A stretch of 42,260 nucleotides of DNA from Cytophagales bacterium (lineage in GTDB: Bacteria; Bacteroidota; Bacteroidia; Cytophagales; Spirosomataceae): positions 1 to 42,260 of the forward strand of contig JAAFIU010000011.1 in assembly GCA_013298805.1 (NCBI GenBank), given 5' to 3'. The number at the start of each line of letters is the position of its first letter. Position 1 is the first letter of the stretch. Below, in pieces: positions 5,317 to 34,234 of this stretch. The notes beneath the pieces are model-generated. The model was given only the letters and a program-made list of their open reading frames with translations, had not been told where the DNA came from and ran no database searches. The position numbers and the translations under genes are program-made.

Positions 5317-5325
5317 AATCTAATC

Positions 5326-17086: not shown

Positions 17087-17215
17087 TATAACAAAATATC
17101 AGTATAACACTATTATCAAATTTAATAGTATATGTAATGTCCCAAGATTCAAGTTATTATTACTTGAATCAAACTAATTTTATAAAAGACAACTAATAAA
17201 CAAGGGTATATACAA

Positions 17216-18415
17216 ATGAAAAAAACTTTTTTTAATTACGAAAATTCCTTGTTAATCATTCTTTTCTTAACATTCGGCTTAATGTTTATGGATAGAATGA
17301 GTTTTACTTTTTTAATGCCATTTATAGTGAAGGATTTAGGTCTATCTAATACACAAAGTGGATTGGTTTTAGGTATTTTATCCTTGTTTTTTGGTTTATC
17401 TACTATCATTTTTTCAAGTATTTCCGACTTACTTGGCTCAAAGAAGAAAATGCTTATTGTTTTTGTCTTACTGTTTTCGGTAGCAACATTAGCCGTTGGT
17501 TTGATTGAAGATGTAACTTCGATGATTGTCATTCGAGCCATCATGGGCATTACAGAAGGCCCTGTGATTCCGTTGATATTAGCCATTGTATTAGCAGAGT
17601 CTACGGTTAGTCGCAGAGGTTTTAATATGGGTTTAGTTAAAGGTTCTGCACCATTAATGTCTGGGGTTTTAGCTCCAATGATATTGATTCCGATTGCCAT
17701 TAATTATCATTGGAAATGGGGATTCTATGTCTTGTCAATACCTGGATTTATTATGGCCATAATTATTTGGAAGTATATAAAAGAACCGAAAATGCAAAAT
17801 GATGAAGCAGAATCAAAACCTACTTTTAAAGAACTACAAAAAGTATTTGCACAAAGAAATATTTGGCTTTGTATGCTAATAAGTATTTTCTATACGGCTA
17901 ATTTAACTTCATTTCTTGGCTTTTCACCCCTTTTTGTATCAAATGTGCTAAATTATACAGAGAGCCAGCTTCAAATATTTTTAACAGTTTTTGGCATTGG
18001 GTGTTTTATTTGGTTTTTCACAATACCGAGTATTTCAGATAAATTTGGCAGGAAACCTACATTACTATTTTTTGCTTTTTTCTCCATGTTTTTACCATTA
18101 ATTATGGCAACGTTTACCATGAACTTTGGACTAACAATTGGAGTAATTCTTCTCTTAACTTGTGCTTTTGGTTATATGCCACTGTTTGATTCAATCATAC
18201 CTGCCGAATCGGTACCCCATAAGTATGCAGCATCAGTGATTGCAGGAACTATTCTTACAGGTGAAGTTATAGGCGGCACATTTGGCCCTGTCATTTCTGG
18301 AATAATGGCAGACAAATATGATTTACATGCACCTTTCTATGTGGGAGCTATTGCTGCTGGAATTGCATTTATATTATCATTAGGCATTAAAGAAACTAAA
18401 CCTGATTTCGTTTAG
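17216..18415 (+). CDS. MFS transporter, probable organic/aromatic acid importer
   Basis: A 399-aa protein with about 12 predicted membrane helices. TM1 contains MDRMSFTFLMPFIVKDLGLS, and the loop 2-3 motif is SDLLGSKKKM (GxLaDrxGrkkv type), repeated in the second half as SDKFGRKPTLL. The layout resembles anion:cation symporter/aromatic-acid MFS importers. It is the first gene behind the AraC-type promoter and precedes a TonB receptor by 61 bp, so together they would bring a catabolic substrate across both membranes. The substrate cannot be inferred from sequence. It is unlike the exporter at 21932. Confidence 0.8.
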   Translation: MKKTFFNYENSLLIILFLTFGLMFMDRMSFTFLMPFIVKDLGLSNTQSGLVLGILSLFFGLSTIIFSSISDLLGSKKKMLIVFVLLFSVATLAVGLIEDVTSMIVIRAIMGITEGPVIPLILAIVLAESTVSRRGFNMGLVKGSAPLMSGVLAPMILIPIAINYHWKWGFYVLSIPGFIMAIIIWKYIKEPKMQNDEAESKPTFKELQKVFAQRNIWLCMLISIFYTANLTSFLGFSPLFVSNVLNYTESQLQIFLTVFGIGCFIWFFTIPSISDKFGRKPTLLFFAFFSMFLPLIMATFTMNFGLTIGVILLLTCAFGYMPLFDSIIPAESVPHKYAASVIAGTILTGEVIGGTFGPVISGIMADKYDLHAPFYVGAIAAGIAFILSLGIKETKPDFV

Positions 18416-18476
18416 TAGCACATTGATAGCATTTTAGCAAAAACTATTTTTTAATTTTTAACCTTAAATTATTACA

Positions 18477-21386
18477 ATGATGAAAATTTTACAATCCCAA
18501 GGTAGGTCTTGGAAAAATAGACTTACAAAAAGTCATCAAAAAACCATCTTTTTGGCACTCGTATCAATACTGATGAGTTTTAATGTATTTGCTCAACTAA
18601 CCATTCAAGGCAAAACGACTGACAAAGCGGGTGCTTCTTTGCCAAATGTTAGTGTAGTTGTTAAAAATACAAAAACAGGGACAGTGTCTGATGTTGATGG
18701 AGCATATAAAATCAACGTGGCGAATAGTACCGACGTTTTGATTTTTACCTTTATTGGATATGTACCAAAAGAAGTTGTGGTAGGAAGTCAAACGACAATT
18801 AATGTTAGCTTGGAAGAAAATATTGCTGCATTAGATGAAGTGGTTGTTACAGGAGTTTTTGACAAACGTACTGCCTTGAATTCTTCCATTGCAATTTCTA
18901 CACTTAATTACACTCAAATTGATAAAATTGTGCCAACAAGTGCCGCAGATTTATTAAAAAATGTACCCGGTGTTTTTGTCAATTCATCTTTGGGAGAAAT
19001 TCGAAATACGGTTTATTCAAGAGGTGTTTCCGTTGGTAATAATGATGGTCGCTGGGGCTACGATTATGTATCTATGCAAGAAGATGGGCTACCAGTTACG
19101 AACTCACTTTTTGCAAATTTTGGTCCTGACTTTTTCCTGAGAGCCGATGCAACTATTTCAAAAATTGAGGCAGTTCGTGGGGGTTCGGCTTCCATTGCAG
19201 GTCCAAATGCACCGGGCGGTATCTTTAATTATATTTCAAAAGTTGGCGGCGACCACTTTGAGGGTGAAATAAGAACAAAATTTGGTTTAGAAGGAAATGG
19301 GAAAAATCCTTATTATCGAGCAGACTTTGATTTTGGAGGACCATTAAATGCTGCCAAAACTTTAACATATAATGTTGGTGGTTTTTACAGACAATCAACA
19401 GGCTCTCAAGATGCTGGTTATCCTGCCAATTATGGGGGGCAAATCAAGGCTAATTTGTTTTATAAATACAAAACAGGTTCGTTGAAATTCATTGCAAAAT
19501 ACTTAAATGACCATAATTTGAGCGTAGAAGCTACGCCTACAACAAGTTTTACAGACATAAAACCAGCAACTGGTTTTGATAATACTTCTTCGCTTTTGTA
19601 CCCTGCGGTTACGCAATCTTACACAGTGCCAGGTTGGGGAAATTATGATTACAACCCCAACAAACTTTGGCATTCAAGAGATACTAAATTTGGCTTAAAT
19701 TGGGAGCAAAATTTGGGCGAAAGTGGCTGGAAATTTAGCAATAACATGAGTTTTGCAAGCAAAAACCTAACAGGCTATTCGCCAGAAGGTACTGCTTCTG
19801 CTATTGATTTGACCAATTTTGTATCTTACATCATTCTCGGTTCATTGCACCCAGGACCTCCGGGAGCTCCTGGAACATTTGTTGTGCCTGGCAATTATAC
19901 ATTTAGTGTAGGCGGACAACCAGTTATAACAACCACGCAGGGTTTTGATTTTTCACAACCTGTGCCTTTTGCTTTTAAAGTAAATACAAATACAACAGCA
20001 GGGGCTGCTATTAACCCAAATTCAGTACTTTTCACGCCTTTGATTATTCAGGATAATAAAGTAAATGAGTTTTTCGACCAGTTTAATTTTACTAAGAAAA
20101 CCAAAAATATGAGCTTTAATGTTGGTGGTTTCTTTGGTAGTTCAACGCTTGATAGATTTGTTGGTTCATTTGGTGTAACGTTTAACACGATTCAAAACCA
20201 CCCGCAACCACTTAATGTTACATTGAAAGCACCAGATGGTACGGTTTTCCAAGTAACAAATCCAAATGGAATTTCAAAAGTTGGTGCTGACCAAGGTTAT
20301 ACTGATATTCGAGCAAAACAAGGGCAAATGGCATTCTTCTTAGCTCATACGTGGGAAATTAATGACAAATTGACCTTCGATTGGGGACTTCGTTATGAAA
20401 ATATCAACATCAATGGTACTAATAAACCGCCAGTAGTTACACCAGCAACCGACGGCGGAGTTGATAAAAATCCTTTGACGCTTTATGATAATTATACAAC
20501 AAGCTTCGGCACACCATTGACTTATGATAAAACGTTGAGCTACTTATCATATTCAGGTGCGTTGAATTATAAAATTTCTAATAATTCTGCCATTTATGTG
20601 AGGTATTCAAATGGTAACAAAGCTCCAACTTTTAATATTTATACAGATGTTACCACGCAATTTGGACAACAAAGTTTAGACCCCCAAATTCAAAATATTC
20701 AACAATTTGAGTTAGGTTTTAAGTCAAGAACTGGCAATTTGACAACTACAATTACACCTTTTTATAGCAATCTGAGCCACGTACCGAATAGCGTAAGTTT
20801 TACGAATGCTCAAGGTGCATTGTACAACCCACCTGCCCAATATGAAAGTATCAAAACATACGGTCTTGAATTGGAAGGTAATTTATCATTGTCAAAAAAC
20901 TTGAGCGTGCGTGGTGTAGTTACGCTGCAAGATGCTACGGCAACTGTCTATAAATCATGGAATCACTTGAATGATGGCACTGATGTAATTGTAGATAATT
21001 CAGGAAATAAGGCTGCAAACGTGCCAAATTTGATGATGAATATTACGCCTGAATACTCAAATGGCAAGTTTTATGGAAACATAACTTGGTCGTATTTGGG
21101 TGCAAGACAAGCCAATTTTGCTAATGCTTTTGAATTGCCAGCATTTAGTCAATTTAATATGGCGTTGGGCTATGATGTTTCTTCTAAACTTAGATTAAGT
21201 GGCAATATCAATAATTTATTCAATACTTATGGCGTGATGAATTGGATTGCCCCAGGTTCATTTCCATTCAATACCAATTTAGAAAGCCTTTCTAAAAGTG
21301 ATGTAGCCAAGGGTGGCAATACGTTTTATCAAACAATTGCGATTCCTGCAAGAGCATTTTTCTTGACATTGAGGTATAAGTTTTAA
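18477..21386 (+). CDS. TonB-dependent receptor with carboxypeptidase-regulatory-like domain
   Basis: A 969-aa protein (ATG 18477 or 18480). The signal peptide ends near residue 39 (MSFNVFAQ). A carboxypeptidase-D regulatory-like domain follows (TIQGKTTDKAGASLPNVSVV), then DEVVVTG and the plug (SAADLLKNVPGVFV; VRGGSASIAGPNAPGGIFNY). The remaining about 700 residues are barrel strands ending in aromatic LTLRYKF. Known: such receptors import ligands through the outer membrane using TonB energy. No SusD partner follows, so it is not a classical glycan utilisation pair. Linkage to an importer and catabolic genes suggests uptake of the same compound. A strong terminator follows. Confidence 0.92.
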   Translation: MMKILQSQGRSWKNRLTKSHQKTIFLALVSILMSFNVFAQLTIQGKTTDKAGASLPNVSVVVKNTKTGTVSDVDGAYKINVANSTDVLIFTFIGYVPKEVVVGSQTTINVSLEENIAALDEVVVTGVFDKRTALNSSIAISTLNYTQIDKIVPTSAADLLKNVPGVFVNSSLGEIRNTVYSRGVSVGNNDGRWGYDYVSMQEDGLPVTNSLFANFGPDFFLRADATISKIEAVRGGSASIAGPNAPGGIFNYISKVGGDHFEGEIRTKFGLEGNGKNPYYRADFDFGGPLNAAKTLTYNVGGFYRQSTGSQDAGYPANYGGQIKANLFYKYKTGSLKFIAKYLNDHNLSVEATPTTSFTDIKPATGFDNTSSLLYPAVTQSYTVPGWGNYDYNPNKLWHSRDTKFGLNWEQNLGESGWKFSNNMSFASKNLTGYSPEGTASAIDLTNFVSYIILGSLHPGPPGAPGTFVVPGNYTFSVGGQPVITTTQGFDFSQPVPFAFKVNTNTTAGAAINPNSVLFTPLIIQDNKVNEFFDQFNFTKKTKNMSFNVGGFFGSSTLDRFVGSFGVTFNTIQNHPQPLNVTLKAPDGTVFQVTNPNGISKVGADQGYTDIRAKQGQMAFFLAHTWEINDKLTFDWGLRYENININGTNKPPVVTPATDGGVDKNPLTLYDNYTTSFGTPLTYDKTLSYLSYSGALNYKISNNSAIYVRYSNGNKAPTFNIYTDVTTQFGQQSLDPQIQNIQQFELGFKSRTGNLTTTITPFYSNLSHVPNSVSFTNAQGALYNPPAQYESIKTYGLELEGNLSLSKNLSVRGVVTLQDATATVYKSWNHLNDGTDVIVDNSGNKAANVPNLMMNITPEYSNGKFYGNITWSYLGARQANFANAFELPAFSQFNMALGYDVSSKLRLSGNINNLFNTYGVMNWIAPGSFPFNTNLESLSKSDVAKGGNTFYQTIAIPARAFFLTLRYKF

Positions 21387-21407
21387 TATTTTTTCCCTTA
21401 GTTTTGA

Positions 21408-21446
21408 AGAATACTGAGAATCATAAACTCAGTATTCTTTTTTTTT
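21408..21446 (+). terminator. Rho-independent terminator after the TonB receptor gene
   Basis: AGAATACTGAG, a nine-base loop, then its exact complement CTCAGTATTCT, followed by eight T. It closes the MFS-receptor unit and separates it from dinB-type gene 21474. Confidence 0.9.
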
Positions 21447-21473
21447 AGACAATTACATTAAACCATCTTTTAA

Positions 21474-21935
21474 ATGACAACATCAATTCTCAATTCGATT
21501 GCGGATACCAATTTTCTGAAAGTAAAACTTTTACTGGAAAAATTAACTACTGAAAATAGCTTAAACCGTATCAATCAAGAAACAGGTACAGCAGGCTTTT
21601 ATTTTAGACATATTGCAGAGGCACAAATCCTGTTAGGTAAATTGTTTTTTGATAGTAGTACAAATTTACCTTATGAAAATCCTTTAACTATGCGTGTTCC
21701 TAATGATGATGGAAGACAATATGATATTGAAGAAACTAAGATGATGATGCAAACAGGTTTTGATAGCCTCAAAAGTATAATTGAAAATACATCTGAAAGC
21801 GATTGGCATACGATTAAACATACACAACCTTTTGGTGATATAATGCTTATACAGGGTTTAAGTAGGGTTTTAAATCATAATGCCCATCACTGCGGACAAA
21901 TTGAACTATGCTTTAAGAAACCCCATTTACATTGA
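21474..21935 (+). CDS. DinB-family protein
   Basis: A 153-aa four-helix protein with the histidines expected of the DinB metal site: FYFRHIAEAQ (about residue 47) and HNAHHCGQIE (about 137-146). Known: DinB/YfiT proteins bind metal and include thiol-dependent transferases; many have no assigned role. Its stop overlaps the TTG start of the next transporter gene, so the two are coupled. In this setting it may detoxify or modify a metabolite exported by the neighbour. That link is inference. No promoter box was seen in the 27 bp between the terminator and the ATG. Confidence 0.75.
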   Translation: MTTSILNSIADTNFLKVKLLLEKLTTENSLNRINQETGTAGFYFRHIAEAQILLGKLFFDSSTNLPYENPLTMRVPNDDGRQYDIEETKMMMQTGFDSLKSIIENTSESDWHTIKHTQPFGDIMLIQGLSRVLNHNAHHCGQIELCFKKPHLH

Positions 21936-23116
21936 TAACAAAAGAAATAATAAAACCCAATACTGTGATTATTGTATTGGGTTGTCTCAATGGGCTACTG
22001 CCCTTTACGACAGATATGTATTTACCTGCATTTCCGTCTATCGCAAAAGAGTTTGACGTTGAGATTTCGCAAGTAGCACTTTCTTTTAGTAGTTACTTTT
22101 TGGGAGCTTGTTTGGGGCAACTAACCAATGGTCCAATTTTAGACCGTTTTGGTAGAAAAACACCAATGCTGATAGGTTTATCAATATTTATTATAGCGAG
22201 CTTGGGTTGTGGTTTATCTAATAGTATTGAAATGCTAATCGCCATGCGTTTTTTTCAAGCATTAGGTACGAGTATTTGTGCAGTAGGTAGTAGGGCTGTG
22301 GTACGTGATATTTTTCCTGTTGAAAAAACAGCAAAAGTTTTTTCAACAATGACTCTAATTATGGGAGTAGCTCCAATCGTAGCCCCTTCCCTTGGTAGTT
22401 TTTTGCTTTTATATTATAACTGGCGGGTAATCTTTTTTGTGCTTATGCTCATCGCTTTCTGTTTAATTGTGGCATTATATAATTATCTACCTAATGTAAA
22501 AAAAGCAGATATAACGTATTCATTACGCCCAAAAAATGTAATGAATTCTTATTTTGATGTGCTTAAAACACCAACTTTTCTAACATATACTTTGATAGCA
22601 AGTACGGCGAGTAGTGTATTATTTGCTTATATTTCAAGTTCATCTTTTATTTTTACCCAACTTTTAGGTTTCTCGGCACAACAATTTGGTTGGATTTTTT
22701 CTATAACGGCAAGTTCATTGATTTTGGGGAATCAATTCAATCGGATGTTTTTAGAAAAATATTCAAGCCAACAAATAGCCATAAAAGCAAGTGCCGTGCA
22801 ACTATTTTTTGGAATTATTTTAATTATTGTAGCCATTCGTTTTTTGACATTACCGAATATATTAATACCGCTTATTATATATGTTCTTTGCAACGGCATG
22901 ATTACACCCAATGCAATGGCTTTGGCATTACGACCTTTCACCAAAAATGTAGGGAGTGCAACTGCTATGATGGGCAGTTGCCAAATGGCAGCAAATGCCA
23001 TCGCAACTGGGTCAATGAGTTACTTTCATAATAATACTGCTTTACCAATGGTTATTTTTATGTCAGGGGCAACAACAATCGGTTTATGTATTCAAATTTT
23101 TGCAAAAAAGAGGTAA
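21932..23116 (+). CDS. Bcr/CflA-family MFS exporter
   Basis: A 394-aa protein starting at TTG in the overlap ATTGATAA with the upstream stop. No ATG precedes the first membrane helix, so the TTG start is required. TM1 carries TTDMYLPAFPSIAKEF, the signature of the Bcr/CflA drug-resistance group, and loop 2-3 has GPILDRFGRKTPML. About 12 membrane helices. Known: the family exports drugs and small metabolites by proton antiport. Between DinB and the AraC regulator, it probably relieves toxic intermediates of the catabolic pathway; this is inferred from position. Confidence 0.85.
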   Translation: MITKEIIKPNTVIIVLGCLNGLLPFTTDMYLPAFPSIAKEFDVEISQVALSFSSYFLGACLGQLTNGPILDRFGRKTPMLIGLSIFIIASLGCGLSNSIEMLIAMRFFQALGTSICAVGSRAVVRDIFPVEKTAKVFSTMTLIMGVAPIVAPSLGSFLLLYYNWRVIFFVLMLIAFCLIVALYNYLPNVKKADITYSLRPKNVMNSYFDVLKTPTFLTYTLIASTASSVLFAYISSSSFIFTQLLGFSAQQFGWIFSITASSLILGNQFNRMFLEKYSSQQIAIKASAVQLFFGIILIIVAIRFLTLPNILIPLIIYVLCNGMITPNAMALALRPFTKNVGSATAMMGSCQMAANAIATGSMSYFHNNTALPMVIFMSGATTIGLCIQIFAKKR

Positions 23117-23148
23117 ATTAGTACTTAAATTCAAATAATATTCTTGAA

Positions 23149-24060
23149 ATGGAAAAGAATATACCGATACTCAAGCCCTACGAATTTAATAAATACCATT
23201 TTGGTGATACCGAATGGATTCCGCCTTTTGCTACATTTGAGCATCTCTTTCAGTTCAATCGGATTGAAGCTTTTAGAGATAAACTTAAATTCCCGATTCC
23301 CCCTCATCGTAAGCTGGTCTATGATTTTATTTTTCTTACAAAAGGCAAGTCTATACGCAGTAAAGGACTTAATGAATATCATTTCTCAGAAAATATGTTC
23401 TTTTTACTTCCTGCGTTTCAAATTTCTACCCACACCTTTTTAAGTGAAGATGCCGAAGGATTTTACTGTCATTTTAATGCTGAAATATTAGAAAAATATT
23501 TTCCTCACCATTCTTTTTATGAAACTTTTCCGTTTTTAACTTTTGCTGGTAATCCAATTGTTGAGGTTGATTTCGCCTCGAAAAAATGGATACTAAATGT
23601 TTTAGAAAGATTAGAAAATGAATATACAAAACCAGAATTAAATAGATTTGATATTGTTTCATCTTATTTGTTTTCACTTTTTAATGAACTAAACCAATTG
23701 GTAAAACCTGTTGAAACTACCACAAAAAATGCTGCTCTCCGAATAACCGAAAAATACAAAAATGCCCTGTCACAGCATATCTACAAAAAACAAAGAGTAA
23801 CAGACTATGCCGATTTGTTATCTATTTCTCCCGACCATCTCGGTAAGTGCGTAAGAATCACCACTGGTAAATCTTCCCAAGAATTGTTGATTGAAATGAT
23901 AGTACTTGAAGCCAAAGTACTACTACAACAAACCAATTTATCAATAAGTGAAATTGCTTACCGAATTTCTGAAAAGAACGTAAGCGATTTTAGTCGCTTT
24001 TTTAAAACCCATGTAGGAATGACCCCCAGTGAATATCGCAATATGACGGATTTTACATAA
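23149..24060 (+). CDS. AraC-family transcriptional regulator
   Basis: A 303-aa protein. Residues about 1-190 form a ligand-binding domain of the AraC cupin type (PHRKLVYDFIFLTKGKS). Residues about 200-300 form the double HTH: LLSISPDHLGKCVRITTG and LSISEIAYRISEKNVSDFSR, then FFKTHVGMTPSEYR. It is 32 bp behind the exporter and probably cotranscribed. The last 18 bases of the gene are part of a 44-bp element with TGACG repeats 21 bp apart that also precedes the MFS-TonB unit. It is thus the likely activator of both catabolic units, with an operator partly inside its own coding end. Confidence 0.88.
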   Translation: MEKNIPILKPYEFNKYHFGDTEWIPPFATFEHLFQFNRIEAFRDKLKFPIPPHRKLVYDFIFLTKGKSIRSKGLNEYHFSENMFFLLPAFQISTHTFLSEDAEGFYCHFNAEILEKYFPHHSFYETFPFLTFAGNPIVEVDFASKKWILNVLERLENEYTKPELNRFDIVSSYLFSLFNELNQLVKPVETTTKNAALRITEKYKNALSQHIYKKQRVTDYADLLSISPDHLGKCVRITTGKSSQELLIEMIVLEAKVLLQQTNLSISEIAYRISEKNVSDFSRFFKTHVGMTPSEYRNMTDFT

Positions 24061-24109
24061 AACTTGACGTTTAAAGCTAAATTTTCAGCCAGTAGTATTG
24101 TTAATTTTG
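24043..24109 (+). promoter_or_regulatory. Regulated promoter of the main catabolic operon
   Basis: TGACG half-sites lie at 24044 and 24065, 21 bp apart, and a -7 box TAATTTTG at 24102-24109. Half-site to -7 box distance is 37 bp, identical to the promoter at 17020-17086. Shared invariant blocks are ATGACGGATTTTACA, ACTTGACGTTT and GCTAAATTTTC. The first half-site overlaps the last codons of the AraC gene. Transcription would start about 70 bp before the cupin ATG. Confidence 0.68.
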
Positions 24110-24187
24110 TACAACTAAATAATGATTTAGTTAAATTATTATTTAGTCAAAAAAGCTGATTTTAGCAAAAGTCAATTCAAAATCTGA

Positions 24188-24676
24188 ATGAAAACCCCAA
24201 TTAGAAGATTAGTAACTGGACATTCACCCAGCGGCACAGCAGTATTTACTTCCGATAACCAATATGAAACAGTGGTCATTCCTTCTGGTGATGCTGCTAT
24301 GGCAACCATTTGGACAACAAGCAGTGTTCCCGCTGACCTTAATGACGAAACAGATGGGCGAGAAAGAGACGCAGGAACAACCCTAAAAGGTGGTTCAGTT
24401 ATTCGTGTAGTTGATATCTTACCTAATGCCTCTTCACCAATGCACCGTACCAATAGTATTGATTATGGTATTATAATAAGCGGCACCATAGAATTAGAAC
24501 TGGAAAACCAAGAAATCAAAACGCTTACACAAGGTGATATTATTGTTCAACGTGGCACGATTCACAAATGGCGAAATCCAAGTAATGATGAGATTTGTAG
24601 AATTGTATTTGTCCTAACTGAGGCAAAGGCATACCAACTAAATGGGCTGCCATTGAATGAATTTATGGAACATTAA
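24188..24676 (+). CDS. Cupin-domain protein
   Basis: A 162-aa protein; the single cupin barrel covers about residues 70-145. Motif 1 is HRTNSIDYGIIISGTIELEL (His86, acidic Asp92) and motif 2 is GDIIVQRGTIHKWRN (His126), so only part of the usual three-His-one-Glu metal site is evident. Known: small cupins in aromatic operons can be isomerases, dioxygenases or sensors. It is first in the operon. A metal enzyme acting on an enol intermediate or a substrate sensor are both possible; I cannot choose. Confidence 0.75.
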   Translation: MKTPIRRLVTGHSPSGTAVFTSDNQYETVVIPSGDAAMATIWTTSSVPADLNDETDGRERDAGTTLKGGSVIRVVDILPNASSPMHRTNSIDYGIIISGTIELELENQEIKTLTQGDIIVQRGTIHKWRNPSNDEICRIVFVLTEAKAYQLNGLPLNEFMEH

Positions 24677-24724
24677 ATCAATTTATCGAACGAATCAATA
24701 GTGATTGTTTTTCAAGAAAATTTT

Positions 24725-24856: not shown

Positions 24857-24859
24857 AAT

Positions 24860-25733: not shown

Positions 25734-26702
25734 ATGGCAAGAAACCCGCATTATTTATCACAAATGGCTCATATAGAAGTCTATACCACCAAGTTGGACG
25801 AATCAGTAAAGTTTTTTACAGATATTGTTGGTTTAGATGAAACAGGGCGAGAAGGAAATTCAGTTTACCTAAGAGCTTGGGGAGATTATTTTTTTCACAC
25901 ATTAAAACTAACCCAAAATGATAAGCCAGGTTGGGGGTGTTTGGGCTGGCGTGCCGATAGTGAAGAAGCTCTTGAAGATGCAGTAAAATATTTAGAGTCA
26001 ATTGGAAATGGAATTGGTTGGGTTGATGGAGATTTAGGTCATGGAAAATCATATCGTTTTAAATCACCGGATGGTCATCTACATGAAATCTTTTGGGATG
26101 TAGTTTGGCTAAAAGAAACAGGAATTAGAAGAAGTGTTTTTGCCGACCGTTATGCAAGTAATCGCAGAAAAGGTATTTGTCCACGTCGTTTTGACCACGT
26201 TACTTATAATACTGCACAATACCCTGCCGAAAAAGCCTTTTGGAATGGCTTTGGTTTGAAAAACCCAGATGAAGTACGAATTAATGATGACCTACCACCA
26301 ATCGGGGGCTTATTTACAACTGGCAACCTTTCGCATGATATTGCTATATTTTCTGACCCTGCTTTGCAAAAAGGTGAAGGCGTATTAAATCATGTAGCAT
26401 TTAACTTTGATAGCCGTGAAGAAGTGCTATTGGCTTGTGATTGGGTAATTGAAAATGGGTATAAGTTAGCTATGGGAGCCCCAACTCGCCACAAAGCAGA
26501 CGAAGGTTTTTTTATTTATATTGACGAACCAGGTGGAAATAGGTTTGAATTTTACGCAGGTGCAAGACTAATTTTCGCCCCTGACCACGGACCTGACATC
26601 CATTACTTAAAAGACAATCCTAATGATGCGTGGGGTGATACAAGCCCTTGGTCTGCACCTGATGGAAGTGTAAAAAAAGAACACGGAAGTTATAAGTCGT
26701 AA
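25734..26702 (+). CDS. Extradiol ring-cleavage dioxygenase (VOC family, two-domain type I)
   Basis: A 322-aa protein with two vicinal-oxygen-chelate modules: AHIEVYTTKLDESVKFFTDI near the N-terminus and FDHVTYNTAQYPAEKAF at about 153. The iron ligands of type I extradiol dioxygenases are all in place: His155 (DHVTYN), His220 (LNHVAFN), Glu272 (NRFEFYAG); His201 and Tyr262 fit the usual second-sphere residues. Known: these enzymes cleave catechols next to the diol using Fe(II) and O2. This is the key evidence that the operon degrades an aromatic ring. The specific catechol is unknown. Confidence 0.9.
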   Translation: MARNPHYLSQMAHIEVYTTKLDESVKFFTDIVGLDETGREGNSVYLRAWGDYFFHTLKLTQNDKPGWGCLGWRADSEEALEDAVKYLESIGNGIGWVDGDLGHGKSYRFKSPDGHLHEIFWDVVWLKETGIRRSVFADRYASNRRKGICPRRFDHVTYNTAQYPAEKAFWNGFGLKNPDEVRINDDLPPIGGLFTTGNLSHDIAIFSDPALQKGEGVLNHVAFNFDSREEVLLACDWVIENGYKLAMGAPTRHKADEGFFIYIDEPGGNRFEFYAGARLIFAPDHGPDIHYLKDNPNDAWGDTSPWSAPDGSVKKEHGSYKS

Positions 26703-26740
26703 TTTAATCTGAAATCAAAAATCGTAAATCCGAATTAAAA

Positions 26741-27853
26741 ATGTGGCATTATTTCCCCAATCAATATATGCCCTCTTACCAGTTGAATCGTGCTTTAACA
26801 CAAGCACATTATGGAGGAGGTGAGTTTGCTGAATGTATAGAAGCGGCAAGTGAAATTACACCAGGTGACAATGCAAGTTTTCATAACGCATGGTCAAAAA
26901 TTGGCAATACAATTTATGAAGAAGCAGAAAATGCTTTGAAAGAAGGTAATAATGCTACGGCAAGAAGAGCCTATTTAAGAGCATTTAACTATCTACGTAC
27001 CTCAGAGTTTTTCTTAAAACCAAGCGATGATAGAAAATTACCTGCCTATTTAAAATCGGTGGGGGCATTTCACAAAGCCATTGACCTTTTTGATAACCCA
27101 CCCAAACGCATTACCATTCCGTTTGAAGGTTCATCTATTTCAGGCTATTTATTTACACCAATTGGTAATAATAATGCTCCTGTAATGATAATGTTTGGAG
27201 GTTTGGATAGCTTGGCAGAAGAAATGTATTTTGGTCCGAGCCAATTATTGAATGAGAGAGGCATTGCTTTATTAGTTTTAGATGGTCCCGGTCAAGGAGC
27301 AACGCTTCGCTTGAATCATATCAATACTCGATTTGATTATGAAGTACCAGCTACGGTAGCTTTTGATTGGACATTAGAAAACCTCAAAGATGTAGTTGAT
27401 ACTTCTCGCATCGGTATCATGGCGGTTTCAATGGGCGGTTATATGGCGGCACGTTCGGCGGCTTTTGAAACTCGTTTTAAAATTTGTTGTATTTGGGGAG
27501 CAGTTTGGAGTTATTATGATGTTTGGAAAAATCGCCCAGACGACCATCCATTAGCCGAAATTGTAATGCACATTGTAGGTGCAAATAATATGACAGATGC
27601 ACGTGAGCGTTTGAAAAAATTCACTTTGGAAGGTGTTGCCGAAAAAATATCTATGCCAACTTATGTACTTCATGGTGAAGATGATAGACAAAATTTTGTA
27701 GAAAATGCCTACAAAATGCAAGCAGCCTTGACTTGCGAAAAAACCATTGAAATCGTACCAAAAGAGAGCAGCGGTTCGGCTCATTGCCAAATAGATAATT
27801 TTACAAAAGCCTATAAAATGTTTGATTGGGTTGCAAAAGAAATGAAAAAATGA
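26741..27853 (+). CDS. Alpha/beta hydrolase, FrsA/dihydroxypseudooxynicotine-hydrolase-like
   Basis: A 370-aa protein. An about 120-residue helical N-terminal cap (YQLNRALTQAHYGGGEFAEC) precedes the hydrolase core. The nucleophile elbow is AVSMGGYMA (Ser230), the acid lies in HGEDD (Asp314 or Asp315), and the base is His348 (GSAHCQ); LDGPGQGAT is typical of this subgroup. Known: members such as 2,6-dihydroxypseudooxynicotine hydrolase break a C-C bond in a diketone-type substrate. Next to an extradiol dioxygenase it would cleave the ring-fission product. The exact reaction is inferred. Its stop overlaps the start of a truncated SDR by four bases. Confidence 0.85.
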   Translation: MWHYFPNQYMPSYQLNRALTQAHYGGGEFAECIEAASEITPGDNASFHNAWSKIGNTIYEEAENALKEGNNATARRAYLRAFNYLRTSEFFLKPSDDRKLPAYLKSVGAFHKAIDLFDNPPKRITIPFEGSSISGYLFTPIGNNNAPVMIMFGGLDSLAEEMYFGPSQLLNERGIALLVLDGPGQGATLRLNHINTRFDYEVPATVAFDWTLENLKDVVDTSRIGIMAVSMGGYMAARSAAFETRFKICCIWGAVWSYYDVWKNRPDDHPLAEIVMHIVGANNMTDARERLKKFTLEGVAEKISMPTYVLHGEDDRQNFVENAYKMQAALTCEKTIEIVPKESSGSAHCQIDNFTKAYKMFDWVAKEMKK

Positions 27854-27984: not shown

Positions 27985-28018
27985 ATAATTATTTGTATAA
28001 AATTAATAATCAAGTACA

Positions 28019-29296
28019 ATGATACAGCAAATTAAAAAAGGCATTACCTATGCCGAAAGCAAAGAGGCTGACTTGAAAGTAAGAGCATTGGTAGAAAATA
28101 TGCTTGAAAAAGTAAGTCAAGAAGGTGATACCGCAGTTCGTGAATTTTCAACAAATTTAGACAAGTGGTCGCCCGAAAGTTTTAAAATTTCAGCAAAACA
28201 AGCTCAAGAAATTATCGCCAATTTACCCGAACAGGTAATAAGCGATATAAAATTTGCACAAACGCAAATCCGAAATTTTGCTCAAATTCAACGTGAATCT
28301 ATTAAAGATGTAGAAGTTGAAACTTTGCCAGGCGTATTTCTTGGGCATAGAAACATTCCAGTAAATTCTGTCGGTTGCTATGTGCCAGGTGGTCGTTATC
28401 CGATGGTGGCATCGGCTCACATGAGCGTTTTGACAGCAAAAGTTGCAGGTGTAAAGCGTGTAATTGCTTGTACGCCACCTATAAATGGGCAAATTCCTGC
28501 GGCAACCGTTGCGGCAATGTATATGGCAGGAGCAGATGAAATTTATTTATTGGGAGGCGTGCAAGCAATCGCTATGATGGCAATAGGCACAGAAACCGTA
28601 CAACCAGTAGATATGTTGGTAGGGCCTGGAAATGCCTATGTAGCAGAAGCAAAACGTCAATTATTTGGAAAAGTAGGCATAGATTTATTTGCAGGACCTA
28701 CCGAAACCTTAATAATAGCCGATGCTACTTGTGATGTTGAAATGTGTGCAACTGACCTTTTGGGGCAAGCTGAACATGGGCCAACTACGCCAGCGATTTT
28801 ACTAACATCAAGCAAAGAAATTGCCGAAGGAATTGAAGCAGAAATTCAAAGGCAATTAACCATTTTGCCAACGGCTGATATTGCCAGTGTTTCGTGGCGA
28901 GATTATGGACAAGTTATTTTGGTAGATAATGTTGAAGAATTGATTTCGGAAGCAGATAGAATTGCATGCGAACACGTACAAGTTATGACAGAAAATCCAA
29001 GAGAATTTTTGGAGAAAATGACTAATTACGGAGGTTTATTCTTGGGAGCAAGAACCAACGTTGCTTTTGGCGATAAAGTAATCGGTACAAATCATACGTT
29101 GCCAACCAAAGAAGCGGCACGTTATACGGGTGGACTTTGGGTTGGAAAATTCTTGAAAACCTGTACTTATCAAGAAATAAAAACCGATGAAGCCAGTGCC
29201 ATGATTGGTGAATATTGTTCAAGACTATGTGCCATTGAAAACTTTTCGGGACATCAAGAACAAGCCGATTTGAGGGTTAGAAGATATAAAAAATAA
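28019..29296 (+). CDS. Histidinol-dehydrogenase-family NAD-dependent alcohol dehydrogenase
   Basis: A 425-aa protein of the HisD family. Zinc and catalytic residues are visible: Gln250 and His253 (GQAEHGP), Glu318-His319 (ACEHVQV), Asp352 ([13 protein letters not shown]) and His412. [10 protein letters not shown] is the usual family signature. Known: HisD oxidises histidinol to histidine in two steps; related enzymes such as HpsN oxidise other alcohols to acids. No other histidine gene is near, so a catabolic four-electron oxidation of a side-chain alcohol to a carboxylate is the better reading here. Its stop overlaps the next SDR start (TAATG). Confidence 0.85.
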
Positions 29297-30033
29297 TGAG
29301 AACAGCTTTAATAACAGGAGGAGCGGGTGGCATTGGTTCGGCAATTTGTAGAAAATTTGCAGAAGCAGGTTACTCTGTGATAATAACCTACAATTCGGAT
29401 AGAGAAAAGGCAGAAAAACTATTAGCTTCTTTACCCGAAGGTAATCATGCTATTTTTCAAGCACCCAATACAAATCCTGAAAAACTACAAGCATTAACAG
29501 AATTTATAAAAAAGAAATACGGCAAATTAGATGTTTTGGTCAATAATGCAGGCATTACAACGCCCGTAAAACACGAAGATTTAGAAGGTCTAACAGATGA
29601 ATGGATTGACAAAATTATGCAAACCAACGTGCGAGGAACATTTGCAATTATTCGTGCAATGCAACCACTTTTAGCTCGCTCATCAGGTGTGGATGCTTTA
29701 ATAGTTAATATTTCTTCGGTAGCCGCTATTTCAGGCATTGGAAGCAATGTAGCCTATTGTGCTTCCAAAGCGGCGGTTGACAGTATTACTCGTTCTTTGG
29801 CAAGAGCATTAGCACCCAAAATCAGAGTAGTTTCTATTTCGCCAGGTTGGGTTTTGGGCGATTATACGCAAAATATTGACCCCGAATATCTACAAACTCA
29901 AATAGACAAAACACCCTTAGCACGTTTGGCAAGTGCAGAAGACGTAGCCAATACGGTCTTGGCTTTGGCAACACATTTAACCTTTACAACAGGTTCAATT
30001 ATTCCAGTTGATGGCGGACGGCTTTTACTATAA
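29296..30033 (+). CDS. Short-chain dehydrogenase/reductase
   Basis: A 245-aa SDR starting [14 protein letters not shown] (cofactor motif 7-14), with NNAG (83-86) and the catalytic Ser140, Tyr154, Lys158 (AYCASKAAVD). It overlaps the HisD-like gene by one base, so the two are translationally coupled and probably act in sequence, for instance SDR oxidation of a secondary alcohol and HisD-type oxidation of a primary one. After beta-2 it has TYNSDREK, which lacks the acidic NAD-type residue, so NADP preference is possible. Confidence 0.88.
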   Translation: MRTALITGGAGGIGSAICRKFAEAGYSVIITYNSDREKAEKLLASLPEGNHAIFQAPNTNPEKLQALTEFIKKKYGKLDVLVNNAGITTPVKHEDLEGLTDEWIDKIMQTNVRGTFAIIRAMQPLLARSSGVDALIVNISSVAAISGIGSNVAYCASKAAVDSITRSLARALAPKIRVVSISPGWVLGDYTQNIDPEYLQTQIDKTPLARLASAEDVANTVLALATHLTFTTGSIIPVDGGRLLL

Positions 30034-30076
30034 ATAATTCAATCCAAAAAACTAACCTTTGAAAAACGATTAAATT

Positions 30077-31216
30077 ATGTCTAAAATTAAAAAAGCTCTT
30101 ATCGTAGGTGGAGGAATCGGGGGTTTATCAGCTGGTATTGCCCTCAGAAAAGCAGGAATTGAAGTCGAAATAGCTGAAATAAGCAAAGAATATAATGTTT
30201 ATGGCGTAGGTATCATTCAACAAGCCAATGCCTTGCGTGCCTTAGATGCTCTTGGAGTAGCTGATGAAGCCATGCGTAGAGGCTCACCTTATGGCAAGTT
30301 GAAATTATGCACAGTAAACGGAATGCTAATTGGTGAAACAGGAACGCCGCCCATCGGTAGATTTCCAAGCCATAATGGCATTTCCAGAAAAATATTACAC
30401 GAAGTGCTGCACGAAGCTGCCATAGAACATTCCGTTAAATTCAGAATGGGACTTACTATTGCTTCAATACAAAATGAAGAAAATAGCATAAATGTTGAAT
30501 TTACCGACGGTTCAACAGGCACTTTTGATGTGTTAATTGGGGCAGATGGTATCAATTCAAAAGTAAGAAAATTAGTATTCGGCGAATATCAACCTAATTA
30601 TACAGGTGCTTCTGTTTGGCGATATGCCTTCAAACGCCCCGCAGAATTAGATACAAGTTATATGTTTTTTGGAAAAAATACTAAAATGGGTTTAGTACCA
30701 ATGACTGCCGAAACAATGTATATGTTTCTTGTTTCAGCAGAAGGTGACCACAACCCAATCATACCAGAAAGCGAGTTAATACCACGTTTACAAGCACATT
30801 TGAAGGAATATTCTGCTGATTTAGCAAAAGGTTTGTCAGAACAAATCACAGACCCTAAAGGTGTAATTTATCGTCCCTTAGAAACCTTAATGTTATCTTT
30901 ACCGTGGCATAAAAACCGTGTTATTATGATTGGAGATGCGGCTCATGCTACTATTCCGCAGTTAGGTTCTGGGGCAGCTTTGGCAATTGAAGATGCCGTA
31001 GTTTTAGGCGAGTTAATAAATACCGATGATTCGGTAGAAACGATATTTGAAAAGTATATCGCTCGTCGCTATGAACGTTGCAAAATGGTTGTCGATGTCT
31101 CTGAAACTATTGGAAAATGGGAAATGATGAATTGGAAAGGCATTGAGTTGCCAGAAGGAGCAAATATTGCAGCATTGATGGATAAAACCTTGATTACTTT
31201 GACAGAAAATATATAA
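30077..31216 (+). CDS. Class A flavoprotein monooxygenase
   Basis: A 379-aa protein with all three fingerprints of FAD-dependent aromatic hydroxylases: GGGIGGL (11-17), the DG motif LIGADGINSKVRKL (about 154-167), and the GD motif MIGDAAHATIPQLGSGAALA (about 283-302). It resembles the salicylate/6-hydroxynicotinate hydroxylase group. Known: these enzymes add one hydroxyl to a phenolic or pyridinic ring using NAD(P)H and O2, sometimes with decarboxylation. In this operon it would make the diol used by the extradiol dioxygenase. Substrate not determined. Confidence 0.88.
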   Translation: MSKIKKALIVGGGIGGLSAGIALRKAGIEVEIAEISKEYNVYGVGIIQQANALRALDALGVADEAMRRGSPYGKLKLCTVNGMLIGETGTPPIGRFPSHNGISRKILHEVLHEAAIEHSVKFRMGLTIASIQNEENSINVEFTDGSTGTFDVLIGADGINSKVRKLVFGEYQPNYTGASVWRYAFKRPAELDTSYMFFGKNTKMGLVPMTAETMYMFLVSAEGDHNPIIPESELIPRLQAHLKEYSADLAKGLSEQITDPKGVIYRPLETLMLSLPWHKNRVIMIGDAAHATIPQLGSGAALAIEDAVVLGELINTDDSVETIFEKYIARRYERCKMVVDVSETIGKWEMMNWKGIELPEGANIAALMDKTLITLTENI

Positions 31217-31245
31217 TTAGGCGATTCAATTTAGCAAATACAAAT

Positions 31246-32202
31246 ATGAAATTAGTTACATTTAAAAATACAAAAAACAAGGTTCGCATTGGGTGGTTGC
31301 AAGCAGACGGAGTGGTAGATATGAATTTAGCCTCTAAAAAACTACCCACAGATATGCTCAAATTCATTGATAATCACGAAAAATATCGTGCAATAATTGA
31401 TGGTTTGGGAGAGGTAATTGCCCATTTTGCACTTGATGAAGTTCAGTTATTAGCCCCTCTACCAAATCCACGTGGCTTTCGTGATTTTATCGGTTTTGAG
31501 CAACACATGCTTAACGCCTCTAAAACTTTCGGTCATGCTGTAGCAGAAATATGGTACCAAATTCCCATTTTTTATTTTACCAATCATCAAGCTATTTATG
31601 GTCCAGATGCTGATATACCAAAGCCAACAGCAGAAACGAGAATGGATATGGAATTAGAAATGGTAGCAGTTATAGGTAAAAAAGGGGCAAATATAAAAGC
31701 TGCAGATGCCGAAGAATATATTTTTGGCTATACCATTTTTAATGACTGGTCTGCTCGTTATTTGCAAAAATTCGAATCAGCAGGACCACCATTAGGTCCA
31801 CACAAAGGGAAAGATTTTGCTAACTCAATCGGTCCATGTATTGTTACAAAAGACGAAATGGAGCAATACAGATGTACTATCACCCCTGATACATTTCCAA
31901 GTCATCTCAGATTCCCTAAAAATAATTTACAACGATTTGACCTAAAAATGACCGCCAAAATAAATGGTAAAACCATTACAGAAGGTAATGCTAATACTGT
32001 TTTTTGGGCTTTCCCAGAGCAAATCCAGAGAGCATCCGAAAATAGCGTTACACTAAACCCAGGCGATATGTTAGGTAGTGGTACAGTCGGTTGGGGTAGT
32101 TTGGTAGAAACAAATTTTACAAACCATCGTCCATTAGAAGTAGGCGATATAGTCGAAATGGAAATTGAAGGAATCGGAGTTTTAAGAAATAAATTAGTGT
32201 AA
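31246..32202 (+). CDS. Fumarylacetoacetate-hydrolase-family protein
   Basis: A 318-aa protein. The FAH core has the metal ligands Glu136 and Glu138 (MELEMV) and Asp167 (FNDWSAR), then GPHKGKDFANSIGP, and ends PGDMLGSGTVGWGS...GDIVEMEIEGIG. Known: the family covers fumarylacetoacetate and acylpyruvate hydrolases and 2-oxo-hepta-3-enedioate hydratases, all Mg-dependent steps on ring-cleavage products. Here it would give a C4 acid or pyruvate. The following gene, PEP carboxykinase, starts three bases after its stop, which favours fumarate or another C4 acid as product. That step is inference. Confidence 0.87.
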   Translation: MKLVTFKNTKNKVRIGWLQADGVVDMNLASKKLPTDMLKFIDNHEKYRAIIDGLGEVIAHFALDEVQLLAPLPNPRGFRDFIGFEQHMLNASKTFGHAVAEIWYQIPIFYFTNHQAIYGPDADIPKPTAETRMDMELEMVAVIGKKGANIKAADAEEYIFGYTIFNDWSARYLQKFESAGPPLGPHKGKDFANSIGPCIVTKDEMEQYRCTITPDTFPSHLRFPKNNLQRFDLKMTAKINGKTITEGNANTVFWAFPEQIQRASENSVTLNPGDMLGSGTVGWGSLVETNFTNHRPLEVGDIVEMEIEGIGVLRNKLV

Positions 32203-32205
32203 GAA

Positions 32206-33780
32206 ATGGATTTGAAACAATACGAAATTTCACCTAAAACAGAAGTAATAAGAAATGCTTCGCCCGCCAAATTGTATAAGTTGGCAATGCTATTTGAGGA
32301 AAATCCAGAAATTACAAATACTGGAGCTTTAGCTCTCATGTCAGGAGTGAAAACGGGCAGAAGCCCAAAGGATAAGAGAATTATTGCCCGACCTGAAAGC
32401 CATGATGATATTTGGTGGGGCGACATCAATATTAAGATGGATGAGCATACGTTTGATATTAATCGCCAACGTGCGATTGATTACTTCAATACTCGTTCCA
32501 GAATTTATGTGGTAGATGGCTATGCTGGTTGGGATAAAAAGTATCAAATTAAAATCAGAGTGATTTGCACTCGACCTTATCATGCTTTGTTTATGCATAA
32601 CATGATGATTCGACCTACGGAAGAAGAATTAATGACTTTTGGCAATCCTGATTATGTGATTTATAATGCTGGCGAGTTCCCTGCCAATACGTTTACATCC
32701 CACATGAATAGTCGCACAAGTGTTGATTTGTGTTTTGAACGAAAAGAGTTTGTGATTTTGGGTACTGAGTATGCTGGTGAGATGAAAAAAGGGATTTTCA
32801 CTATTATGAATTATATAATGCCAAAACAGGGTATTTTATCAATGCATTGTTCGGCAAATGAAGGGCAGAATAACGATGTGTCATTGTTTTTTGGCTTGAG
32901 TGGTACTGGTAAAACAACCTTATCTGCTGATGCAAACCGTAAACTAATAGGAGATGATGAGCATTGTTGGTCAGCTGATGGCATTTTTAATATCGAAGGA
33001 GGTTGTTACGCAAAAGCTGTAAATCTTTCGCCAATCAAAGAAGCTGAAATCTTTGGAGCAATTAAATTCGGAACTATTCTTGAAAATGTAGTAGTAAATG
33101 CCGAAACCAACGAAGTTGATTATGACGACATAAGTATCACAGAAAATACAAGAGCTTCGTATCCTATTGAATTTATCAATCAAGCTAAAATTCCTTGTCT
33201 TGGTGGACACCCCGAAAACATTATTTTTCTTACTTGCGATGCTTTTGGTGTACTACCTCCTGTCTCTAAACTAAATTCGGCACAGGCAATGTATCATTTT
33301 ATTAGTGGTTACACAGCTAAGATTGCAGGAACAGAAATGGGAATAACTGAACCTACCGCTACTTTTTCAGCTTGTTTTGGGGCAGCATTTTTGGTGTGGC
33401 ATCCTGCAAAATATGCTGAATTACTTTCTGAAAAAATTGGAAAACATAACACCAATATATGGTTAGTAAATACAGGATGGATTGGTGGCAGCTATGGTGT
33501 TGGCGAAAGAATTAAACTTAAATACACCCGTGCCATTATTGATGCGATACATTCGGGTGAACTAAAAAATGCAACTTTTATAGAAGATAAATGCTTTGGG
33601 TTTCAAATACCAACAACTTGCTCTAATGTGCCTTCTACTATTTTAAGCCCCTCAAATCATTGGGAAAGTATAGAAGATTACCAAGTGGCTTCAAAAAATA
33701 TTTCCCAACTTTTTAAAAAGAATTTTGAAAAGTATGTAGATGGTTGCACAAGAGAAGTAATAAATGCTGGACCGAAATAA
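32206..33780 (+). CDS. pckA: Phosphoenolpyruvate carboxykinase (ATP)
   Basis: A 524-aa enzyme of the ATP-dependent class. It shows [14 protein letters not shown] (45-58), the P-loop GLSGTGKTT (230-238), GDDEHCW (249-255) and HMNSRTS. Known: it converts oxaloacetate + ATP to PEP + CO2, the first step of gluconeogenesis from C4 acids. A housekeeping enzyme in a catabolic operon is uncommon; it starts three bases after the FAH-family gene and so is firmly part of the operon. It may remove C4 products of ring degradation. Whether the chromosome has another copy cannot be seen here. Confidence 0.95.
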
Positions 33781-33814
33781 TTCTAACATAATTAAACAAT
33801 TAATCTTAAAAAAA

Positions 33815-34234
33815 ATGAAAAAATTACTAAACCTTGATTTTTTGCCTAAAAACCTTGATTGGGCATTACTTATTTTCCGTATTTGGGTTGGAGTGAGTTT
33901 ATTTTGTAATCATGGCATCGAAAAATTTGTAAAATTCTCTGAATTTTCAAATAATCCCAAAGCCTTAGACCCTATACATATTGGTATTTTACCTACTTTA
34001 ACGTATGCCACCTTTACCGATGGTATCTGTTCTCTTCTTGTTATTCTTGGTCTTTTCACACGACTAAGTTCACTACTTATTGTATGCACTTTATGTGTTG
34101 TATTTTTCATATTAAAAGGAGGTTCTTTTGTTCCAAAAGATGCAGAAGTTGTTTATTTATATCTTGGTTCGTACATGTATCTTGCTTGCATTGGTGCTGG
34201 TAAGTATAGTTTGGATAATCGTTTATTCAACTGA
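33815..34234 (+). CDS. DoxX-family membrane protein
   Basis: From ATG 33815 the product is 139 aa. The frame is open to an ATG at 33764 inside pckA, but the downstream ATG opens the typical sequence MKKLLNLDFLPKNLDWALLI. Four membrane segments lie at about 15-35, 60-80, 85-102 and 110-130, with FRIWVGVSLFCNHGIEKFVK of the DoxX family. Known: DoxX-like proteins sit in the inner membrane and are linked to redox or sulfur chemistry, mostly unassigned. It is the last gene before a terminator, so it closes the catabolic operon. Confidence 0.75.
   Translation: MKKLLNLDFLPKNLDWALLIFRIWVGVSLFCNHGIEKFVKFSEFSNNPKALDPIHIGILPTLTYATFTDGICSLLVILGLFTRLSSLLIVCTLCVVFFILKGGSFVPKDAEVVYLYLGSYMYLACIGAGKYSLDNRLFN

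Follow-up and report, generated by a model that had tools for sequence, protein, structure and literature searches.

The stretch analysed here, the window, is the entire 42,260-bp contig C45 (JAAFIU010000011.1) of a Cytophagales bacterium, whose assembly comprises 461 contigs and is 86.6% complete. At positions 17216-34234 it carries a cluster of 15 open reading frames (ORFs), all on the same strand, which encode proteins of 153-969 residues and are separated by gaps of -17 to +183 bp (Table 1). Families were assigned by profile searches against Pfam and NCBIfam, and the nearest solved structures by comparison with the PDB; the window lists 43 ORFs of at least 100 residues, of which 30 were scanned for families. 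All the genes that an earlier note on this DNA had listed as an aromatic ring-cleavage pathway are indeed there; they share one strand, and their catalytic residues are conserved. The cluster also holds items beyond that list, namely genes for a DinB and a DoxX protein and a 39-codon SDR remnant. The likely role of the cluster is that of a core module, carried on a plasmid, for the use of flavonoid glycosides through opening of the A ring; this substrate class is suggested by the company kept by related loci.

The ring-cleaving enzyme is a type I extradiol dioxygenase. As had been proposed, its iron ligands H155, H220 and E272 are kept in an alignment to 1mpy, together with H201, H253 and Y262; here and below, residue roles and numbers follow those of 1mpy, 2jbw and HisD. 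Its score against the catechol 2,3-dioxygenase profile TIGR03211 (216.7 bits) lies under the curated cut-off of 320.2, and for this reason its natural diol is probably larger than catechol or otherwise different from it. A classical catechol 2,3-dioxygenase meta pathway was considered and rejected on the same score and because the cluster proteins include no member of an aldolase or acetaldehyde dehydrogenase family. For the C-C hydrolase, the nearest PDB entry is 2,6-dihydroxypseudooxynicotine (DHPON) hydrolase (2jbw, E 3e-26), which bears out the type assigned to it before; its triad S230, D315 and H348 is in place in the alignment to the PDB chain. The class A monooxygenase scores above the cut-off of NF005313, as do all seven related cluster proteins compared with it.

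The HisD-like dehydrogenase finds its nearest PDB entry in sulfopropanediol 3-dehydrogenase (8v35, E 3e-115), and the metal and base residues of the HisD fold (Q250, H253, E318, H319, D352 and H412) are kept in the alignment to the PDB chain. A true histidinol dehydrogenase was rejected in view of this closer relative, although the TIGR00069 hisD profile scores above its cut-off. The resemblance suggests that the enzyme and the adjoining SDR2 may convert an alcohol into an acid, and the hydroxyalkyl side chain that the earlier note had read from this pair may be what they act on. The SDR remnant, which lies between the genes for the C-C hydrolase and the HisD-like enzyme, suggests that a third dehydrogenase may have been lost.

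Table 1. Features of the cluster and of the replication region of the same contig
Feature	Position	Strand	Basis and remarks
Rep_3 plasmid replication initiator and ParA	3139-5316	+	Rep_3 3139-4188, ParA 4336-5316 (Pfam)
Promoter/operator-like site 1	17039-17088	+	25-bp box, 15 bp, TAnnTTTGTA; upstream of MFS importer-like gene
MFS transporter, importer-like (direction presumed)	17216-18415	+	PF07690; 33% to C105 MFS protein
TonB-dependent receptor	18477-21386	+	plug, barrel, CarboxypepD_reg
DinB-superfamily protein	21474-21935	+	PF12867 (DinB_2)
Bcr/CflA-family exporter	21932-23116	+	TIGR00710 above cut-off
AraC-family regulator	23149-24060	+	profile; near pathway in 25/33 loci, 3/20 controls
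Promoter/operator-like site 2	24062-24111	+	nearly identical to site 1; upstream of cupin/enzyme half
Cupin	24188-24676	+	Cupin_2
SDR dehydrogenase 1 (SDR1)	24860-25627	+	profile; 71% to C105; 14/33 loci
Two-domain (type I) extradiol ring-cleavage dioxygenase	25734-26702	+	profile and alignment; ligands H155 H220 E272
Alpha/beta C-C hydrolase, DHPON-hydrolase type	26741-27853	+	PDB match; triad S230 D315 H348
SDR gene remnant, N-terminal motif then stop, 39 codons	27868-27984	+	SLAGKVALITGSSSGMGKAIAEV
HisD-like dehydrogenase, sulfopropanediol-dehydrogenase type	28019-29296	+	profile, PDB match, alignment
SDR dehydrogenase 2 (SDR2)	29296-30033	+	profile; 1-bp overlap with HisD-like gene
Class A FAD monooxygenase, candidate A-ring hydroxylase	30077-31216	+	NF005313 above cut-off
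FAH-family hydrolase, acylpyruvase-like	31246-32202	+	FAA_hydrolase
ATP-type phosphoenolpyruvate carboxykinase (PEPCK)	32206-33780	+	profile; genome's second copy
DoxX-family membrane protein	33764-34234	+	PF07681

That these genes form one regulon had also been claimed, and the intergenic sequences support it. Among the 11 intergenic stretches compared, sites 1 and 2 have 23 of 25 bp in common, followed in the same register by 15 bp and TAnnTTTGTA. Because this near-identical box precedes both the importer/TonB half and the cupin/enzyme half at the same distance from TAnnTTTG, it supports reading the two halves as a single putative regulon. The 23-bp core has no other occurrence in the window at up to three mismatches, and by a rough, reasoned estimate the chance of such a 25-mer pair among the compared stretches is about 1e-5. 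The pattern was derived from the two sites that it finds, so its zero matches in shuffled sequence are after the fact. Outside the window, on contig C105 of the same genome and in 32 other loci, sites reach at most 23 of the 31 fixed positions, and the only one at 23 lies upstream of the dioxygenase gene in genome G485. Looser patterns, chosen after such sites had been seen, match upstream of the dioxygenase in 2-3 of the 33 related loci introduced below (0.03-0.85 expected from mononucleotide shuffles) and upstream of none of the other ten genes tested. A scan for general Bacteroidetes promoters speaks against a single regulon, as neither TTTG-N17-24-TAnnTTTG (7 versus 5.6 in shuffles) nor TAnnTTTG (73 versus 67) is in excess. 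A probable activator of both halves is the AraC protein, acting through the common 25-bp box if it is indeed what binds there.

How widespread is this gene set? In the window's own family, 45 of 200 genomes match the dioxygenase at E 1e-40, a number that includes a paralogue of 36-42% identity. Close orthologues (69-100% identity) occupy 37 places in 36 genomes, the window's own being one of the 37. In the phylum as a whole, a match is present in 6 of 395 genomes: the host itself, four with a close orthologue (71-81%), and G058 at 37%. For the analysis of synteny, 33 loci were chosen by their dioxygenase. The window itself was left out, as were six places where the contig was short or ended nearby, G440 was replaced by the Emticicia plasmid record, and Hymenobacter, G387 and G030 were added; Emticicia is placed in what we take to be the window's own family. 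Presence was called by tblastn against reference proteins, many of them from the host's contig C105, at identity thresholds of our choosing. The resulting counts are lower bounds, as several loci extend less than 20 kb on one side and the first 19 kb of C105, with its HisD, GH3 and pca genes, lie outside the counted stretch. Of the 30 places of the dioxygenase paralogue, 20 served as a control; most come from genomes that also supplied the 33 loci, and one spans just 12 kb.

The search for syntenic clusters that the earlier note had called for returned a conserved core: the C-C hydrolase lies beside the dioxygenase in 32 of the 33 loci, the FAH-family hydrolase in 31 and the monooxygenase in 30. 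A cyclase and the AraC regulator follow with 25 each, then an ABM protein (17) and SDR1 (14), while HisD and SDR2 occur in the identical 24 loci. At equal thresholds none of these pathway enzymes is found in the 20 control loci, where AraC occurs in three. The partners thus stay beside the dioxygenase and are not conserved in the unrelated contexts covered by the controls. PEPCK was found only in the window, with none at 50% identity or above in the 33 other loci, a threshold below which a linked PEPCK would escape. The whole core is also carried in similar order, at 58-89% identity, by Emticicia oligotrophica pEMTOL02 and a Hymenobacter monticola plasmid. The paralogous dioxygenases (36-42% to the window's, in the same genomes) have shared neighbours and an AraC gene in the two loci compared, L045 and L047.

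Clues to the substrate come from the genes that surround these relatives. A GH106 alpha-L-rhamnosidase lies in 13 of the 33 loci and a GH78 enzyme in six, so that 18 have one or the other, and GH3 and GH1 glycosidases occur in 12 and six. Each of the four families is absent from all 20 control loci (Fisher p = 1.7e-5 for the rhamnosidases). The richest surroundings are those on C105. Its 56.5-kb stretch reads pcaF, pcaIJ, pobA, fused pcaDC, pcaB, pcaG, pcaH, AraC, HisD-like, SDR2 and cyclase, continues with GH3, AraC, TonB receptor, MFS, GH1, GH106, GH2, GH78, SMP-30 and SDR genes, and ends with the core of dioxygenase, C-C hydrolase, monooxygenase and FAH. It is a second, fuller copy within the host genome and probably the better site for a full flavonoid-glycoside pathway. 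The stretch (L146, L147 and L032) also carries a PQQ-dependent dehydrogenase. Adjoining its core, at L032 13568-15394 (-), a single protein combines a TIM barrel resembling xylose isomerase with a domain like that of HPPD, a kind of fusion known from dehydroshikimate dehydratases. On the Hymenobacter monticola plasmid, one run holds glycosyl hydrolases including GH43, a TonB receptor, AraC, GH1 and the core, as well as ABM, cyclase, pcaHGBDC and 4-hydroxybenzoate 3-monooxygenase. Rhamnosyl-glucosides with an aglycone that yields 4-hydroxybenzoate or protocatechuate would match this company, and among them flavonoid glycosides appear to fit best.

In the literature covered, oxidative cleavage of the flavonoid A ring has so far been described genetically for a few Pseudomonadota. 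The parts of PMC11069340 covered here describe the ifc cluster of Variovorax, in which the class A monooxygenase IfcA 8-hydroxylates isoflavones and IfcB is a glyoxalase-fold dioxygenase with 65.8% identity to FdeC, alongside a DHPON-hydrolase-like hydrolase and the cupins IfcD1/2. The same parts liken isoflavone A-ring cleavage to the degradation of naringenin (fde) and note IfcA homologues in Proteobacteria only. The earlier note could match its gene set to no described pathway; this no longer holds, since the combination of monooxygenase, VOC dioxygenase, DHPON-like hydrolase and cupin is that of ifc as those parts describe it (PMC11069340). In the fde system, the first hydroxylation of naringenin at C8 is ascribed to FdeED, a monooxygenase with a Rieske carrier, in the portion of PMC8552027 covered. 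Along the same lines, the covered portion of PMC8515041 reports naringenin-degradation-like genes in Pseudomonas thivervalensis SC5 and mentions oxaloacetate as a reported A-ring product.

The following route can be envisaged. The TonB receptor and the MFS protein would import the phenolic, and glycosidases encoded elsewhere, such as those on C105, would remove the sugars. The class A monooxygenase would then hydroxylate the A ring beside a phenol (at C8, by analogy with IfcA/FdeE), and the extradiol dioxygenase would open the newly made catechol by meta-cleavage. With a 5,7-dihydroxy A ring, a cut beside the freshly formed catechol that takes off C5-C8 would yield a C4 or C3 keto acid. The DHPON-type C-C hydrolase and the FAH hydrolase might cut the diketo-acid into pyruvate or oxaloacetate and a shortened C-ring/B-ring fragment, leaving the remainder of the C3 bridge to the cupin, the SDRs and the HisD-like enzyme. 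The B ring, released as 4-hydroxybenzoate or protocatechuate, would feed the beta-ketoadipate pathway whose genes lie on C105. Finally, PEPCK might convert oxaloacetate to phosphoenolpyruvate for gluconeogenic growth. The presence of a second PEPCK, 50.5% identical to the copy on contig C111, would be explained if oxaloacetate is the A-ring product, as it is reported to be in the part of PMC8515041 covered; the enzyme would serve any gluconeogenic growth as well.

Related clusters outside the Bacteroidota allow this picture to be probed further. The window's monooxygenase is 36-44% and its C-C hydrolase 30-32% identical to those of plasmid clusters in Massilia, Burkholderia, Novosphingobium, Rhizobium and Deinococcus. 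HisD reaches 64-75% in the Rhizobium, Novosphingobium and Massilia clusters, and the cupin 62% in the N. aromaticivorans pNL2 cluster and 36% in that of Burkholderia anthina. A genome scan with the Massilia and Burkholderia dioxygenases provided the loci that we call FdeC-like, the best 80 of 500 relatives being used, with homologues counted by tblastn at E 1e-6 over 60% of the query, so that a few may be other superfamily members. Among these best 80 of 500, the monooxygenase has a homologue in 71, the C-C hydrolase in 70, the cupin in 34 and the FAH hydrolase in 29. Pseudomonas thivervalensis DSM 13194 is one of them; in its locus L135 the FdeC-like gene sits next to genes for a monooxygenase, a C-C hydrolase and a Rieske protein that are homologous to those of Massilia and Burkholderia. 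It is from P. thivervalensis, from these Rieske and monooxygenase neighbours and from the published description, rather than from the FdeC sequence, that we infer the Massilia and Burkholderia dioxygenases to be FdeC-like. Neither of them has a match at 60% coverage in the window or in the 33 Bacteroidota loci.

Several observations weigh against a flavonoid-glycoside pathway of the fde/ifc kind. No glycosidase is present among the window ORFs scanned, 15 of the 33 loci are without a rhamnosidase in the stretch covered, and rhamnosidases release other plant glycosides too. The genes pcaG/H/B and pobA are near 5-6 of the 33 loci, a lower bound, and also near 3 of the 20 controls, a linkage that is weak when taken alone. 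The cupin lies near only six of the 33, and a promoter box of the quality seen in the window is absent from C105 and the 32 other loci. The ring-cleaving enzyme itself differs: the window's dioxygenase aligns with that of Massilia at 27% over 130 residues, and its type, sought over more than 60% of its length, occurs in none of the best 80 of 500 FdeC-like loci. A HisD homologue is near only two of these 80. No Rieske protein is found at 60% coverage in the window or the 33 loci, and the FAH hydrolase is only 23-25% identical to those of the Massilia, Burkholderia, Novosphingobium and Rhizobium clusters (38% in Deinococcus). In the part of PMC11069340 covered, disruption of the DHPON-like hydrolase gene of Variovorax left daidzein degradation going on. 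Finally, the likeness to FdeC, FdeE and IfcA-D was drawn from related clusters and from descriptions, not from the sequences of those proteins themselves.

Could the same chemistry serve another compound? A different plant phenolic with a resorcinol- or phloroglucinol-type ring, such as a dihydrochalcone, stilbene, coumarin, chromone or tannin unit, would be suited by the four core families just as well, with the HisD/SDR pair handling the side chain. The variation of HisD, SDR1, cyclase, SMP-30 and cupin among the loci suggests several substrates, and the dioxygenase lineage differs from that of the fde-like clusters. Set against this, the monooxygenase, C-C hydrolase and cupin are common to flavonoid-type clusters, and rhamnosidase, glucosidase and pobA/pca genes fit flavonoid glycosides and their B rings, so that we regard such a substrate as unlikely. 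The sulfopropanediol dehydrogenase resemblance raises another thought, namely that the HisD-like enzyme and SDR2 form a separate sulfonate or polyol module (compare dihydroxypropanesulfonate breakdown) that merely sits inside an aromatic cluster. The pair is missing near 9 of the 33 loci (one of these, C105, has it on the uncounted stretch) and, as said, HisD is rare at FdeC-like loci (two of the best 80 of 500). The pair's recurrence with the pathway in 24 Bacteroidota loci, and the occurrence of HisD (64-75% identity) beside an SDR gene in the clusters of Rhizobium, Novosphingobium and Massilia, make this quite improbable.

The earlier note had left phenolic and N-heteroaromatic substrates side by side; an N-heteroaromatic is unlikely because rhamnosidases, glucosidases and protocatechuate/4-hydroxybenzoate genes lie near orthologous loci. 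A nicotine- or pyridine-like compound was hinted at because DHPON hydrolase is the solved structure closest to the C-C hydrolase, and the monooxygenase does match 6-hydroxynicotinate 3-monooxygenase, among many others. Yet the 15 cluster proteins include no molybdenum hydroxylase, amidase or deaminase family, the relatives adjoin rhamnosidases and some also protocatechuate genes, and the isoflavone cluster holds the same hydrolase type in the part of PMC11069340 covered. The degradation of such a compound therefore seems very improbable, and a flavonoid glycoside remains the substrate that we favour.

Genes of mobile elements frame the cluster. Immediately left of the cluster lies a truncated serine resolvase gene (16401-16724) and to its right a transposase (34605-35481) that we take to be IS630-like, with its HTH and DDE_3 parts in separate ORFs, followed by two PD-(D/E)XK-family transposase genes (PDDEXK_2; 36476-37324 and 39125-39988, +). 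Together with the Rep_3 and ParA genes these flanks support the view that the cluster is a cargo module aboard a plasmid-like replicon. TonB-dependent uptake of an aromatic on a plasmid, as proposed before, thus stands in so far as the receptor gene and Rep_3/ParA are present; no exact terminal overlap of 16-200 bp was found on the contig, which leaves circularity unproven. A megablast search of 16000-40900 against plasmids gave no match. The same contig encodes the type I restriction-modification proteins HsdR, HsdS and HsdM (Pfam; 8807-15764, -), with a further resolvase gene (8023-8679) beside them.

Maximum-likelihood trees, in a quick version for the C-C hydrolase, hint at a composite history. 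A clade of 30 own-family rows with full support (100/100) includes the C105 copy but not the window's dioxygenase, to which the rows of G387 and Hymenobacter lie nearest (81% identity). The sister of the HisD-like protein comes from the same-genus genome G456 (98/96), and the monooxygenase and C-C hydrolase each branch singly beside larger groups. The plasmid copy looks like a mosaic. As its proteins are 61-76% identical to those on C105, but only 33% for MFS and 46% for AraC, it is not a recent duplicate of C105. The TonB receptor is 61% identical to the C105 receptor and about 45% to the pathway-adjoining ones of Hymenobacter, G387 and G447. The monooxygenase at L040 of G560 (4477-5601, -) shares only 45% identity with that of the window, and in the tree it joins the R. 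rhizogenes and Deinococcus enzymes (96/95, on long branches); in this one Bacteroidota locus the hydroxylase too may have been exchanged.

Taken further, aerobic Bacteroidota such as Hymenobacter, Emticicia and their relatives might own complete flavonoid-glycoside loci, partly spread by plasmids, with TonB uptake, trimming by rhamnosidases and glucosidases, an A-ring-opening dioxygenase whose recruitment was independent of that of FdeC/IfcB, and a B ring led to protocatechuate; we put this broader proposal forward tentatively. If true, a Bacteroidota version with outer-membrane uptake and linked glycosidases would widen the range of soil and water organisms able to consume the compounds that plants use for signalling and defence, and would be a source of new hydroxylases and ring-cleaving enzymes. 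Cultured carriers of related loci are Emticicia oligotrophica DSM 17448 and Hymenobacter monticola KACC 22596. Among the papers listed, we found none on such a route in Bacteroidota, in a search outside of which most subscription literature lay.

Among the closest known systems are the plasmid-borne cores of Hymenobacter monticola and Emticicia pEMTOL02, the former adding an adjoining TonB receptor, GH1, pcaHGBDC and pobA. Unlike the window, neither has a PEPCK annotated in the run, and both records annotate gene by gene, with no pathway named. R. rhizogenes K84 pAtK84c and Deinococcus aetherius pDAETH-1 resemble the window in dioxygenase (36%), monooxygenase (40-44%) and C-C hydrolase (32%), and K84 additionally shares HisD (75%), cupin and SDRs; in contrast, their stretches are without an annotated TonB receptor and hold an epimerase/dehydratase-like gene not found in the window. 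On pAtK84c (L055, 5658-5915) a short ORF, perhaps a gene fragment or wrongly annotated, is labelled PEP carboxykinase (ATP); it has no BLAST match to the window PEPCK at E 1e-3. The combination of TonB receptor, regulator and, on C105, linked glycosidases recalls a Bacteroidota polysaccharide utilisation locus. Unlike in such a locus, no SusD family occurs in the 30 window ORFs scanned, both neighbours of the receptor included, and most genes would serve the aglycone and not a glycan.

With ifc, as far as the covered parts describe it, the window has in common a class A monooxygenase, a VOC dioxygenase, a DHPON-type hydrolase, transporters and regulators, and its cupin is a candidate counterpart of the ifc cupins, the ifc cluster being induced. 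It differs in its VOC dioxygenase lineage, in HisD/SDR2, TonB receptor and PEPCK, in the glycosidases near its relatives and in its Bacteroidota host. With fde, again within the portions covered, it would share a monooxygenase followed by A-ring cleavage, whereas an FdeD-type Rieske protein was not found and the dioxygenase is not FdeC-like. From these genes, the kind of pathway looks shared with fde and ifc and the ring-cleaving enzyme different. The best reading is therefore a Bacteroidota variant that would work like fde and ifc without strict membership in either, with HisD/SDR and TonB modules in addition.

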